A stretch of DNA of 64,000 bases from Tubiluchus corallicola (Eukaryota; Priapulida; Priapulimorpha; Priapulimorphida; Tubiluchidae): positions 589,001 through 653,000 of the forward strand of contig JAQGDQ010000009.1 in assembly GCA_030141605.1 (NCBI GenBank). The letters run 5' to 3'. Numbering within the stretch: position 1 is the first letter of the stretch; every line of letters starts with the position of its first letter. This document shows positions 30,118 through 36,100 of the stretch, piece after piece. The notes under the pieces were generated by a model, which saw only the letters and a program-made list of their open reading frames with translations, was not told the origin of the DNA and searched no databases. The translations under genes were made by a program, and so were the position numbers.

Positions 30118-33100
30118 CTATCTGGATGATCTGTAAAGCAACAACGTTCCTAAAGCACATTTCTTTCCGACAAGACTAGAAAATTCCCGTACGATATCTT
30201 CGTCAGCATTTTCCTCGCCGGTTGACTCTCCTTTCATTTGTTTATACACTCCATAAACTATCAGATGACGTCGATGTAGTATTCTCACATTAGCTAAGTC
30301 TTCATCACTGAAATTCCCATCACAGTCAGCTGCAAGCGGAATGAAAAGTTTTAGGATGCATATGAAAATGTTCTACACCTAAAGCACAACAAAATCCTTT
30401 ACTTACATAAAGCTAAAAAAATTGTATCATCTACAGTACATGTTGTTTTATTGCACACAGAACTTGTATTAGCAGAAATTCTGTAGAGAACTTGAAAATT
30501 TAAAGTCCCGCGAAGACCGTTATGCGCTGCCATATTGACGGTAGATCATTTGAAACAAATTTAGATAACATTGGGTAAAGCTTAAGAAAATAATCAGAGC
30601 ATTCATAAAACACATTTCACTAAAAAAGTAAAGGTTTAAATTTTCAATAAGAACTAATTTTGGTGTGTTGGTGTACACGGAGAAGGTGAGTCAGTAACTA
30701 AATTTAAATTACTAAAAATTTTCTTTTTTAGTTACATAAGTATTTTAAGCAGGTAAACATAATGCTAAGTAATATAGTTCGGTGTGGAAAGTTTTTTTAT
30801 ATACTTTAAAATAGCCATTTCTTCCCCATTAACATTACACTTTCCTTTTTACCATACACTTAATTAGGTTATTGTCACCCCATTTAGCACTCGTTGTGAT
30901 CTCCTCTTGTCTTCTCATAGCATTTATATTTACCAAAATTGTAGATCGTCAGTTTTATATGAATACTTAGAAAAGCAAAAAAACACAACACAATGACAAA
31001 GAAATCATTATGAAAATAAGATGCACCTTATTTTAGAACAAATGCTACACAAAAAGAAGCGCAGCACATCTGCAACAACTAATGCATGATTTTTTAAGCT
31101 TAGTTCAAAAATAACATTAGAAAATGACAAGACAATGCACCATGGTGGCTTATTTTGAAGTTGGTTACAGAACAAAACCTAAAATATGAAATCTGTGAAT
31201 GTTCAGATTGTGATTCTAGCTAGCTTCACTATCGTCAATAGTGCAATAGATCAAGTTACGTTACATGTATACGGGATTGATTTATGCCTTTAACGAAATG
31301 CATCCCTTATGAATATCGGAGTATCACCAAAACATAATATTAATTCATACATACCTTTTCCTGTTTCATCAAATCTACTGTAAGCTGCATTATTAAGCTT
31401 TAGTGCACAACGTTGTAGAGGTAGCCAAGAGTAAGATTCAGGACATAAGAGATACGATGGTTTAAATCTGCCCTAGAAACAATGAATGGAAACAACTTAT
31501 TTGTAATGTGAAAGATGAATCCTTGTCAACACATAGTACCAGTGTGTAGCCAAGAATAAGACTCAGGATATAAGAGATACAGTGGTTTAAATCTGTCCTA
31601 GAAACAATGTATGGAAACAATTTATAGGCAATGTGAAAGATGAATCCCTGTCAATACTACCAACTTTTGTACCATATAATACCAACACTAACAACTTTAT
31701 TATTTGAAAAATAGCAATTTATTATTTACAACAGTAATTACATTCTATCATTATAGATATGATCATCTTACCTTATATCTCATCTTTGGACAAGAATGTA
31801 TGTAGTACCCCATGCAGTAGTATTTCATGTCCGGGTTACTTTGAACTAAGGAACGCACGAAAGCAGCTTCCCTGAAAAAAATTACAGGGGAATAATAACC
31901 AGACATAACATTCAGGCGAAATAAAAATTCCAAAACATATGTATTAATTACCAAGGCATGAATCATACAAGCATAAAACACAAAGCATGTACACTGTTTC
32001 TCAAAGACAGACAGCGTCACAGATGTCAAAGTTTTAAATTTTTTAACAACAGGTGAATAAACAATAGATTTTGTCCAATATCAACTGACACAAAAAACCT
32101 ACCTTTAAATGGCAAAAGTTTGTCACAATCATACACACAACAACTTGTAAAAAATCAAAGTAATGACACACATACAACTTTAGTTGGATAAATGAAAAAA
32201 TAAAAGTAATGACACACACATATCAACTGATATTTGTACTAACCATACAAAAAGGCGATACATGTACATTTTTTGTCATTCAACTAAATTTACAGTAGAT
32301 AGAGCATCAAAGTCCTTAATAACTATCAACAAATGTTTTGCATTTCATACACTGCTGTAAAATATGACATTTTAATTGAACAGTACTAAAAACTACTTAC
32401 CTCAAAGCAGCGTATGTTCCTAATGATAAGAAACCATAATCGGGATCATAATACAGGTAAACAGAAGAAACGTAGTTTGGAAGAATATCTATCACTCCAA
32501 CAGCAATTAGTTTACCATCCAGCCAATATTGCTGATGAAATGATCCATATTCGTGTGCTGAGCTGCCATGTAGAAATTCACTCTACAATAAGAGTTTTAA
32601 ACAGCATTAAATTGCTTAAAAATTGAATAGCATGAGTTTAACCTCTCCGCATGATTGTTCTTTTAGAAAACAGTTTTGTATGAGCAATATGCAAAGAAAC
32701 CCACATTGTAATATAGCTAAATGTTTTCAAAGAGGATAGAGGATTTTCACATGGCACTGAATATTTACCATTACGTTATGACATACGCAAAATCGAAATT
32801 ATTACAATAAATGTGAAAATCTCGTGCCTGTGAAATATAGCACATTTAGCTGACTGGTTATACGAGAGTTACATAGAACTACAGACATTAGGGACACCTT
32901 ACAGGCCAATGCTCCATTCCAACAATAAGAGCAGGTGAAAGTAAGCTTAAGTTAGCAAGTTTCTGCCTTTTTAATTACAATAGTTGCGAAGCAAAAATAC
33001 CTGCAAAGGTGAATCTACCAGAAACTCGGTAAACATGCTCTTACTGCACTCAGACGGCTTGTCATTGTGGATTTTGATCTGATATTTTTGAAAAATGTCC

Positions 33101-36100
33101 AAAGATTTCAGAAAACTATCACGGAATTTTTCACTCCCGGGACTGGATCGAACAGTTGTTACCTGGAGAAAATTGCAGTGCAAAACTTCTAAATTGTGCT
33201 CACAAGATGGCGCAGCACCATGACGCAGAAGACAAGATTTGCTGTACAGATTTAATGACAACAATTTAGTGACACGACGAACTAGATGTTATATCATCCG
33301 TAGTCAACAGCAGCGCACTCACATAAATAACTGTAACGCTGGACGTATTTAACATAAGCTTACTCTCTCCGAGAAAACCAATGTTTAGAGACGATTTCGT
33401 ATAGTGTATTTCTACCTAATTTAACTTTTTTAAATGATGCTGCACCATTGCAGATATAGTTGAACTAATGCACTATGACTTTCTCCAGAGAACTTCACAT
33501 ATTAAATACAAATTACATTATTATACCTCTAGAGGTGAGTCAATCAAAAACCGCTGAAACTGTTTGCGTGTACACTTGTCTTCTGGGTCATGATGAATTG
33601 CCATTTGATACTTTTTATAAACATCGTACGTTTGTTCAAACGTTTCACAAAAATCTGATTGTTGATTTTCGGGTCTGGATCTAACTAGCTTTATCTGGAA
33701 TACGCAGCAAAGCGATGTAGTTACAATGAGATACTCAACGGCACTAAGTTTAAAATACCAGAAAGTTTTTCATTAGGCCGGCCACAAAAAAATTTGTTTC
33801 TGTCTTTCCTCATGAGCTCAAAAGATGCCAGTAGGGAGGGAAGAAATTTTTTTTCAGATTTCGTGAATGTTTAAAGTTAAATCGTGGAATATATAAAATC
33901 AGTTGAAATCAAAGATTGTTCATCTCCCACTAGTTAGCAGTAATGTTTTCAATTTTTTCAATGCATATTTTTCACACTCTGTTTTTTAGTTTTGTATTAC
34001 TAAATTATGATATAATTGTCGATTATTGTATTATCTCCTTTTTGTATCATGAACGTGTATGCTCTGATAATTATGGTATAAGCGGAAACACTACTTGGCT
34101 GTTAAATACATCGATTTGGCAGAAAATTCCATACTTTTTAGCCTCCAATACAATGAACATCATAGGAAATGGGAACCTTGGCCGAGAGTTAGCCGTGGAA
34201 AAACATTCCCGCATCCTGCGTTCCCCGAAAGAACGATTTTACAATAATTATTGCATTTTATGTTTTAAACTATAAAATATGCTTTTATATGACTGCATCA
34301 AGAAAGTATATGGATGCACAAAAAAAATTATAAAATTCCCGGCCGGGGGTGCGATAAAAAAATATTACCCGGGCGACTAACGGAAACACAAGTATTTTTA
34401 TTGTCGGCCTTAGTTAATGAAAGGTCTCTAAAAATACCTAATAAGAAGGAATATTTATGAAGGTGCGAAAGAAAGACTTATCAACTTTTTGTAAAATAGT
34501 GTGAAATTAACAGTACTATCACAGCAAATTCTATTAGTACCTCTAATCGATGAGCAGGATTATCTGGTAATGGTTTATTCAGAAAGTCCTCTACAGTTTT
34601 CTCAGCTGGCTTTTTCCTTGTCAGTACAATCTACAAATTGAAAACAAACATGATATACAATATGCACACGTTCCATACTTGAAGCAAAACACCTTAAGGA
34701 AATCAAGATGATTTTTCATATCCTACCCCATTTTGAAGTATGGTAAAATGTACACATTTTAACACCTATAATAAAACAAAATTGTTTCTGATAATTGAAT
34801 AAATAGGTTAAAAACTCAGTTAACGACAGAAAAGCCTAACTAGTGATGACATCATAATTTTACATAATTTCAACAGCATAAACATTCAATGAGCATTTTA
34901 CAAGTGTTTGCAAAAGCGCACAAAACGCACAAAAACTAAAAAAAAGAAATTTGTTTAAAATTCAAATTCAAGTTTACCGCTATGCTCACGTACGAGTTCT
35001 CGAACATGTGTGCTACAGCACCTATTTTTTGTAGCACGTTTCTGGGATGCAGGCACTATTGTCCATCTAACTGATGAATATGAATTCAAAATTACCATTT
35101 TGTGGTAATGATTCTTTCACAAAGTCGCTGTTGAAAAAAGTATGCTTCCTTTCAATATATTCTAGGGTAGATTGTTTTGAGCTATAAAATGGGTCCAGTT
35201 TTCTTTTAATTAAGAAATGTTTAGTGTATTTACCAAGCTCACATTTAAGCTATACAAGGTGTTACAGAACAAATATTGCCTTTCCAACTGACACCAATAG
35301 GACATAAACTATATAACCTCAGACGGATGTAGTTCTTTGCCTTCTTTTGCAGCTCTTGCAACCAGCTTCTGCTTCTTTCGTTCTATCCTCATCTGTTTTG
35401 CTTTGCCTTGCTTTTGCTTATCCGGATCCGAGACTGAAAAATGTAACGACCCTTTTCAGAGTGAAAACTCACGATAGAAAGTGACACGGATGTGAAAACT
35501 ACTATACCACAATTTACTTTTCATCCTGTTGCTTAGACTTTATGCAACATACAAAAACCCAATGGGTATCTACAGTGTTATGTACATTGAGAAGAGAACC
35601 ATCTAGTGTATTTATAAGAAAAATAATCACAACGTAAAAATTACATATATAAATGTATATAGACTATTAAAGTAGGATGAAAAAGTACGACAAAAACACA
35701 TAAGCAAGACTTTGTATTTTCAAGACAGCACGAGTGTAGCAATTGGCAAACTTTTCCAAGACAATTGGTTTAGTTTAGAATTTTACCAAATTACAAGAAT
35801 TTTACAACTAGGCTGATATTTAAATACATATTTAGTATCTTACCAGAAATTGCACTACTACATTTTTCCACTTCAGCAAGCTGCTTGGTTGACACATCAA
35901 CAAGGTCTACTACAGCTTTACTTGAAGCCTTGTTAACATCAGCAACATTGTCAGCAAACGTTTGCAATTCCCGTTGTTCCTTGACAATTATATCAGTTTA
36001 CTAGTAACTAAAGTCTCAATTCTTAACATATGTTCTATGAGCCTATATATTAACTGATACAGAAAATCTAGTATTTTTTGCAAATATGATGTGAAAAATA

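Follow-up and report, generated by a model that had tools for sequence, protein, structure and literature searches.

Two homologous versions of exon 7 in the ATE1 gene of a priapulid and a candidate RNA switch around the intron between them

Competing pairings around exons 7a and 7b of mammalian ATE1 are said to have been described by Kalinina in 2021. The present work concerns an ATE1 gene of the priapulid Tubiluchus corallicola, found in a stretch of 64,000 nucleotides (nt) of the assembly GCA_030141605.1 (contig JAQGDQ010000009.1, positions 589,001 to 653,000; hereafter the window, whose coordinates are used throughout), in which two adjacent homologous exons, also called 7a and 7b, flank a short intron. 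According to the passages on this gene in PMC8052449, PMC10790352 and PMC9198270, human exons 7a and 7b are controlled by competing RNA structures. The mammalian and the priapulid systems have in common the gene, the exon name and a mutually exclusive choice that is, or here would be, tied to competing structures. The human elements, as far as these sources describe them, are intronic, may overlap splice sites and span up to 30 kilobases (kb), whereas at the present locus a single short intron and its exon accommodate the arms, of which one sits deep in exon 7a and another covers the 7b acceptor. Among invertebrate orthologues, PMC9741552 lists Ate1 of the fly and Ate-1 of nematodes as having tandem exon substitution events; the passage is silent on whether the same exon is involved. 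Since mammals have paired ATE1 exons, and such pairs are listed for fly and worm too, the pair itself is unsurprising; follow-up interest lies in the switch and in the possible convergence with vertebrates. The reading that we prefer, with a probability of roughly 0.6, is that this animal ATE1 gene has two mutually exclusive versions of exon 7, the choice between which would be enforced by competing pairing in the pre-mRNA.

The two exons and the intron between them are as follows.

33527..33694, minus strand: exon 7a, 168 nt, phase 0, with AG/GT sites and homology to exon 7b and human ATE1-2; ATE_C positions 2-35
33163..33526, minus strand: intron 7, 364 nt, between 7a and 7b; contains the competing arms
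33001..33162, minus strand: exon 7b, 162 nt, phase 0, with AG/GT sites and homology

The adjacent homologous exon pair in ATE1 is real. An initial annotation of the window had proposed two such exons, both in phase 0 and with good splice sites, separated by a 364-nt intron, and all of this was borne out, on the minus strand, the splice sites being AG/GT and the intron lying at 33163-33526. Its statement that both exons are exactly 162 nt long has to be corrected: this is the length of 7b, but for 7a the first AG (TTCCAG|ATAAAG) is the most likely acceptor, which makes this exon 168 nt long, the annotated 162 nt resulting from the second AG, six bases further on. In its longer form, 7a can be aligned over the full length both with 7b and with human ATE1-2. 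The peptides of 7a and 7b share 21 of 54 aligned residues, an alignment score that was reached in 0 of 2000 residue shuffles. Divergence between the copies (NG86) was 0.49 at non-synonymous sites (dN) and 2.7, i.e. saturated, at synonymous sites (dS). Because the synonymous sites are saturated yet the peptides are alike, both copies look constrained and the pair looks old. At the triplet frequencies of the neighbouring introns, a stop-free stretch of 54 codons would occur by chance with a probability of about 3%. Tested alone against the Pfam ATE_C profile, exon 7a scored 27.4 bits and exon 7b 21.4 bits, the latter under the 25-bit cut-off. No third copy of exon 7 was found by tblastn of the window; the matches were 7a, 7b and weak ones, one of which was a segment of intron 7 on the other strand (arm B, see below).

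The initial annotation had also held that only one of the two exons fits the protein. In fact each fits alone, yielding open isoforms with both ATE_N and ATE_C, and all four inclusion patterns (7a, 7b, both or neither) are in frame; therefore, neither the reading frame nor nonsense-mediated decay can enforce exclusive use. A 364-nt intron is too long for simple steric interference. Position +5 of the donor is not G in either alternative exon, nor in exons 1, 5 and 6, and is G in the six other donors. The annotated interpretation as a mutually exclusive pair at the mammalian position is supported at the level of sequence; both exons are presumably used, and their use is probably exclusive.

The introns had been suggested as a place to look for pairing sequences that could enforce such a choice, and complementary arms predicted to be capable of it were found in and around intron 7.

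33575..33604, minus strand: arm A1, inside exon 7a; pairs with B (24 Watson-Crick and 1 GU of 30 positions)
33207..33236, minus strand: arm B, intron 7, ending some 44 nt before exon 7b; common partner of A1 and A2
33434..33448, minus strand: arm A2, intron 7; pairs with 33207-33221 of B (13 Watson-Crick and 2 GU of 15)
33469..33493, minus strand: arm C, intron 7; pairs with the 7b acceptor (C')
33158..33182, minus strand: arm C', across the 3' splice site of 7b (33162/33163); with C, 19 Watson-Crick and 3 GU of 25
33443..33462, minus strand: arm D, intron 7; could pair, more weakly, with the region of the 7b donor
32992..33011, minus strand: arm D', across the 5' splice site of 7b; partner of D
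33350..33370, minus strand: arm E, intron 7; with E', 18 Watson-Crick and 1 GU of 21, a helix that would loop out exon 7b
32934..32954, minus strand: arm E', intron 8; partner of E

Ungapped helices were scored over the 1112 nt that comprise exon 7a through intron 8. The five best scores were 45.5, 38.5, 37.5, 34.0 and 30.5, the first four belonging, in this order, to A1:B, C:C', E:E' and A2:B. A1:B is interrupted by a mismatched patch of 4 nt and by one isolated mismatch, in addition to the GU pair, and the 15-nt A2:B pairing is without mismatch. A repeat search of 10.2 kb returned 11 inverted pairs of at least 20 nt, three of them lying fully within 32934-33604. A first duplex calculation on whole segments was uninformative because it permits long loops; of the 10 pairs of segments, not one went beyond z -1.5. 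Two further complementarities were noted: 33397-33415 in intron 7 is complementary to 32570-32588 in the exon 8 acceptor region (score 31.5), and exon 8 has a local hairpin formed by 32483-32507 with 32528-32552 (score 38).

The complementarity of intron 7 to the exon 7a core and to the 7b acceptor is exceptional. When the body of intron 7 alone was shuffled, neither the exon 7a:intron score nor the intron:7b-acceptor score was reached in any of 4000 shuffles, and none of 1860 real 331-nt segments, taken from both strands of 324 kb of the genome, reached the score for exon 7a or for the 7b acceptor. Complementarity of the same shuffled introns to exon 7b (2467/4000), to the 7a acceptor (2100/4000) and to the 7a donor (552/4000) was at background; the score for the 7b donor was reached in 77 and that for pairing within the intron (A2:B) in 59 of the 4000. 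With dinucleotide shuffles of the whole region, the scores of the helices ranked 1 to 5 were reached in 2, 0, 0, 0 and 0 of 1000.

In the mechanism that we propose, one fold would have arm B paired with the core of exon 7a (A1:B), so that exon 7a is masked; in the other, arm B would pair with A2 and arm C would cover the 7b acceptor (A2:B + C:C'). Because the helices A1:B and C:C' cross, they are mutually exclusive in a nested fold. In the ensemble predicted for exon 7a through intron 8 (37 C, Turner 2004), A1:B accounted for 0.81 and A2:B + C:C' for 0.19; for three shorter spans that include C' the values under the same settings were 0.92-0.96 and 0.04-0.08. As long as C' has yet to be transcribed, almost the entire predicted ensemble has A1:B. 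The free-energy gap between the two restricted ensembles was 0.9 to 2.0 kcal/mol over four spans. The predicted openness of the 7b acceptor was 0.15 with A1:B forbidden and 0.35-0.41 with A2:B + C:C' forbidden, that of A1 0.43-0.51 and 0.18-0.19, respectively. D:D' and E:E' had negligible probability in the folded ensemble. When the calculations were repeated with four parameter sets, three temperatures and two spans (24 settings), A1:B was the main fold in every setting, with a share of 0.99 or more in 21 of them, and E:E' was again negligible. The robust part of the folding result is the predicted formation of A1:B, together with its incompatibility with the alternative. On these predictions the locus is a strong candidate for an RNA switch, and pairing would control the choice of exon.

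The arrangement resembles the docker/selector systems of Dscam, srp, 14-3-3 zeta and Mhc as they are presented in PMC6071210, where tandem duplications are said to create competing arms and docking sites to lie in flanking introns. As in these systems, one arm (B) has two competing partners (A1 and A2), and, as in the bidirectional model given in the same account, two folds are kept apart, here by crossing. The complementarity of this arm to its two partners goes beyond chance: strongly for B with A1 (0/4000 and 0/1860), more weakly for B with A2 (59/4000). The dockers described there lie in introns to the left or right of the exon cluster, whereas here the internal intron harbours the shared arm B, and A1 is coding. 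Because of this position of the two arms, we liken the locus to docker/selector systems in its working and do not class it with them by layout.

As to the origin of the pair, we lean slightly towards an independent duplication. The possibility that exon 7 was doubled separately here and in vertebrates, the shared position being a convergence, has in our estimate an even chance. Both copies are about as near as each other to the exon region of human ATE1-2 (PDB 8tzv), the identities being 25/54 and 24/54 residues, and the exon 6-10 stretch scores 264.2 bits against human ATE1-2 with 7a and 260.6 bits with 7b. The exon units also differ, 162/168 nt here versus 129 bp, as reportedly given by Kwon in 1999, for the alternative exons of mammalian ATE1. 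Since exon 7b (162 nt) aligns gap-free to human ATE1-2, one exon border would have to lie 33 nt away from that of the reported 129-bp unit, and such a difference would be hard to reconcile with one shared duplication; the boundary argument hangs on this reported number, and text searches of the literature for an Ate1 exon of that length and for the exon peptides gave no match. In a quartet made of the two exons of this species (w7a and w7b), the human ATE1-2 exon (h7b) and a provisional mouse ATE1-1 exon sequence (m7a), the first 13 ungapped columns favoured a crossed rather than a consistent pairing (0.86). Against separate duplications, the independent grouping of the quartet with this provisional mouse exon was found in only 0.014 of bootstraps with 43 codons and in 0.33 with all 54. 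In the part of PMC9741552 that deals with ATE1, the human, fly and worm genes are named among those showing convergence.

Somewhat below even odds, in our judgement, is the reading of the initial annotation, by which the duplication predates the split from vertebrates and 7a and 7b, each resembling a different member of the mammalian pair, have been kept in one-to-one correspondence with the mammalian exons since the common ancestor. With the provisional mouse exon, the shared-ancestry grouping of the quartet received 0.86 of bootstraps with 43 codons, 0.966 with the core and 0.60 with all 54 codons, and the identities in the core, again with the provisional exon, were 16/30 for w7a-m7a and 13/30 for w7b-h7b as compared with 13/30 for w7a-h7b and 9/30 for w7b-m7a. 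The old, saturated divergence of 7a and 7b, the same phase and the same exon name also suit a shared origin. For the annotated resemblance the evidence is mixed: the core of the quartet fits it, and human ATE1-2 is equally near both copies; the proposed age is favoured by the 43-codon result and opposed by the crossed prefix and by the 33-nt difference from the reported mammalian unit. The mammalian ATE1-1 exon in these comparisons is a provisional sequence, and the PDB search matched only human ATE1-2 and fungal ATE1. Searches for further ATE1 exons gave six bacterial relatives in genome contigs, which were not used further, and two matches in phage records at 34% identity; no relative was found among viral contigs. 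The compound proposition that the exon 7 pair was gained independently here and in vertebrates and that competing RNA structures took control each time appears unlikely to us. In that case the switch would be a compact one, one exon being masked by an inverted copy of its own core and the acceptor of the other by a neighbouring segment.

Several results weigh against control by competing pairing. The arms were chosen after the region had been viewed, and the control figures given here are for this reason descriptive and not pre-planned tests. Comparison with real windows of equal size is less favourable than that with shuffles. Among 219 overlapping real windows from the 64 kb, the scores of ranks 1 to 5 were reached in 14, 13, 6, 7 and 5; the total of the four helices was reached in 28 of 256 window-strands from 160 kb elsewhere in the genome, and in the two genomic sets pooled (half-overlapping windows) in 65 of 732, with all four ranks reached in 44. 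These real-window controls, the full pooled set included, are affected by tandem repeats, on which 59 of the 65 window-strands lie, and a repeat-free set was hence evaluated as well; in it the four-helix total was reached in 6 of 452 and all four ranks in 2 of 452. In the folding calculations, the A1:B fold leaves the 7b acceptor no more open than it is with neither structure (0.41), and openness of the 7a donor is lower in the A2/C fold (0.17-0.20 versus 0.54), which is the opposite of the simple expectation that 7a is then used. Moreover, the balance between the folds depends on the parameters, the second fold exceeding 0.05 in only two runs, both with Turner 2004 at 37 C.

It is possible, if rather doubtful, that the complementarity is incidental, B being a small inverted copy of exon 7a and the splice choice, if there is one, being set by proteins. 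Arm B does resemble an inverted copy of the exon 7a core: the plus strand at 33201-33236 matches residues 29-40 of 7a (66.7%, E 0.10), B is recognisable as codons on that strand, and A1:B has few mismatches. Partial duplication is known in this ATE1 gene from the exon 10 copy (see below). An incidental origin leaves two things unexplained, namely the other helix, unrelated to A1:B, at the 7b acceptor (0/4000 and 0/1860) and the mismatch-free 15-nt pairing of A2 with B. That one exon is unused, or that both can be included as cassette exons, is very improbable: every inclusion pattern is in frame and exon 7b alone stays below the ATE_C cut-off (21.4 versus 25 bits), but 7b retains most of the residues common to human and yeast in this part, dN is well below dS and the splice-site dinucleotides of both exons are intact.

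If the choice of exon is indeed enforced by competing pairing, the locus would provide a second ATE1 pair with a competing-structure switch of its own, centred on an intron of 364 nt, and thereby a small and tractable system. It would allow tests of how tandem exons become mutually exclusive and of whether the same gene reached the same solution twice. At the protein level, exon 7 corresponds to ATE_C positions 2-35, the start of the domain; in yeast ATE1 its counterpart is helix alpha-h and the part that follows, and the exon core aligns with yeast residues that include 170-178 (chain index taken as residue number). The structural description in PMC10115844 places these residues at the end of helix alpha-h in contact with tRNA and makes the alpha-h/alpha-i loop one side of the substrate cleft. 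For mouse ATE1 isoforms, the relevant passage of PMC6212499 reports differing target preference and also cites another group that found similar specificity. A swap of exon 7 would presumably tune the handling of substrate or tRNA by ATE1, and the 7a and 7b isoforms may differ in their substrates.

The gene that contains the pair has the following structure.

30118..39731, minus strand: ATE1 gene, 12 exons, coding span from the presumed start codon, with AG/GT borders and matching phases
Exons in gene order, minus strand: 39644-39731, 38513-38639, 36279-36456, 35844-35979, 35318-35433, 34541-34630, 33527-33694 (7a), 33001-33162 (7b), 32401-32582, 31772-31871, 31355-31472, 30118-30329

The isoforms with exon 7a and exon 7b are 504 and 502 amino acids long, respectively, with open frames, and both match nearly the whole profiles of Pfam ATE_N (85.8 bits) and ATE_C (149.6 bits, and 145.1 bits for the 7b isoform). 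The presence of both domains in one protein identifies the gene, on sequence grounds, as that of the arginyl-tRNA-protein transferase ATE1, with putative arginylation activity. The downstream part of the protein is 68% identical to human ATE1-2 over 112 residues. Cysteines of the metal-binding CX2C...CC type near the N terminus were read in the translation as CGYC and CCC; the motif is mentioned for ATE1 in the parts of PMC10115844 and PMC9884297 concerned with it. A search of the species' own genome (343.5 Mb, 2344 contigs) with the ATE_C profile gave three matches, with exon 7b by itself below threshold. Because all three are exons of this gene (8, 9 and 7a), there is a single ATE1 locus at that sensitivity.

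Some minor features of the locus may be mentioned. Exon 10 has a tandem partial copy (31421-31532 and 31546-31657, 112 nt, 88% identical) that comprises the intron end, the acceptor and the first 52 nt of the exon; inspection by eye shows a stop in the frame of the copy, which looks like a young, failed exon duplication. Intron 2 contains, at about 37506-38435, an array of a 42-nt tandem repeat in which both strands are open for 275-283 codons. In intron 6 there are inverted arms (33775-33801 with 34384-34410) and a 70-nt stretch 80% similar to a place elsewhere in the window (25650-25717), together possibly a small transposon. The window gave no match to an Rfam family at gathering score and contains no tRNA that could be found. 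The open frames at 41600-64000 (plus strand) and 284-17413 look by eye like LTN1 (listerin), UTP20 and CCDC93.

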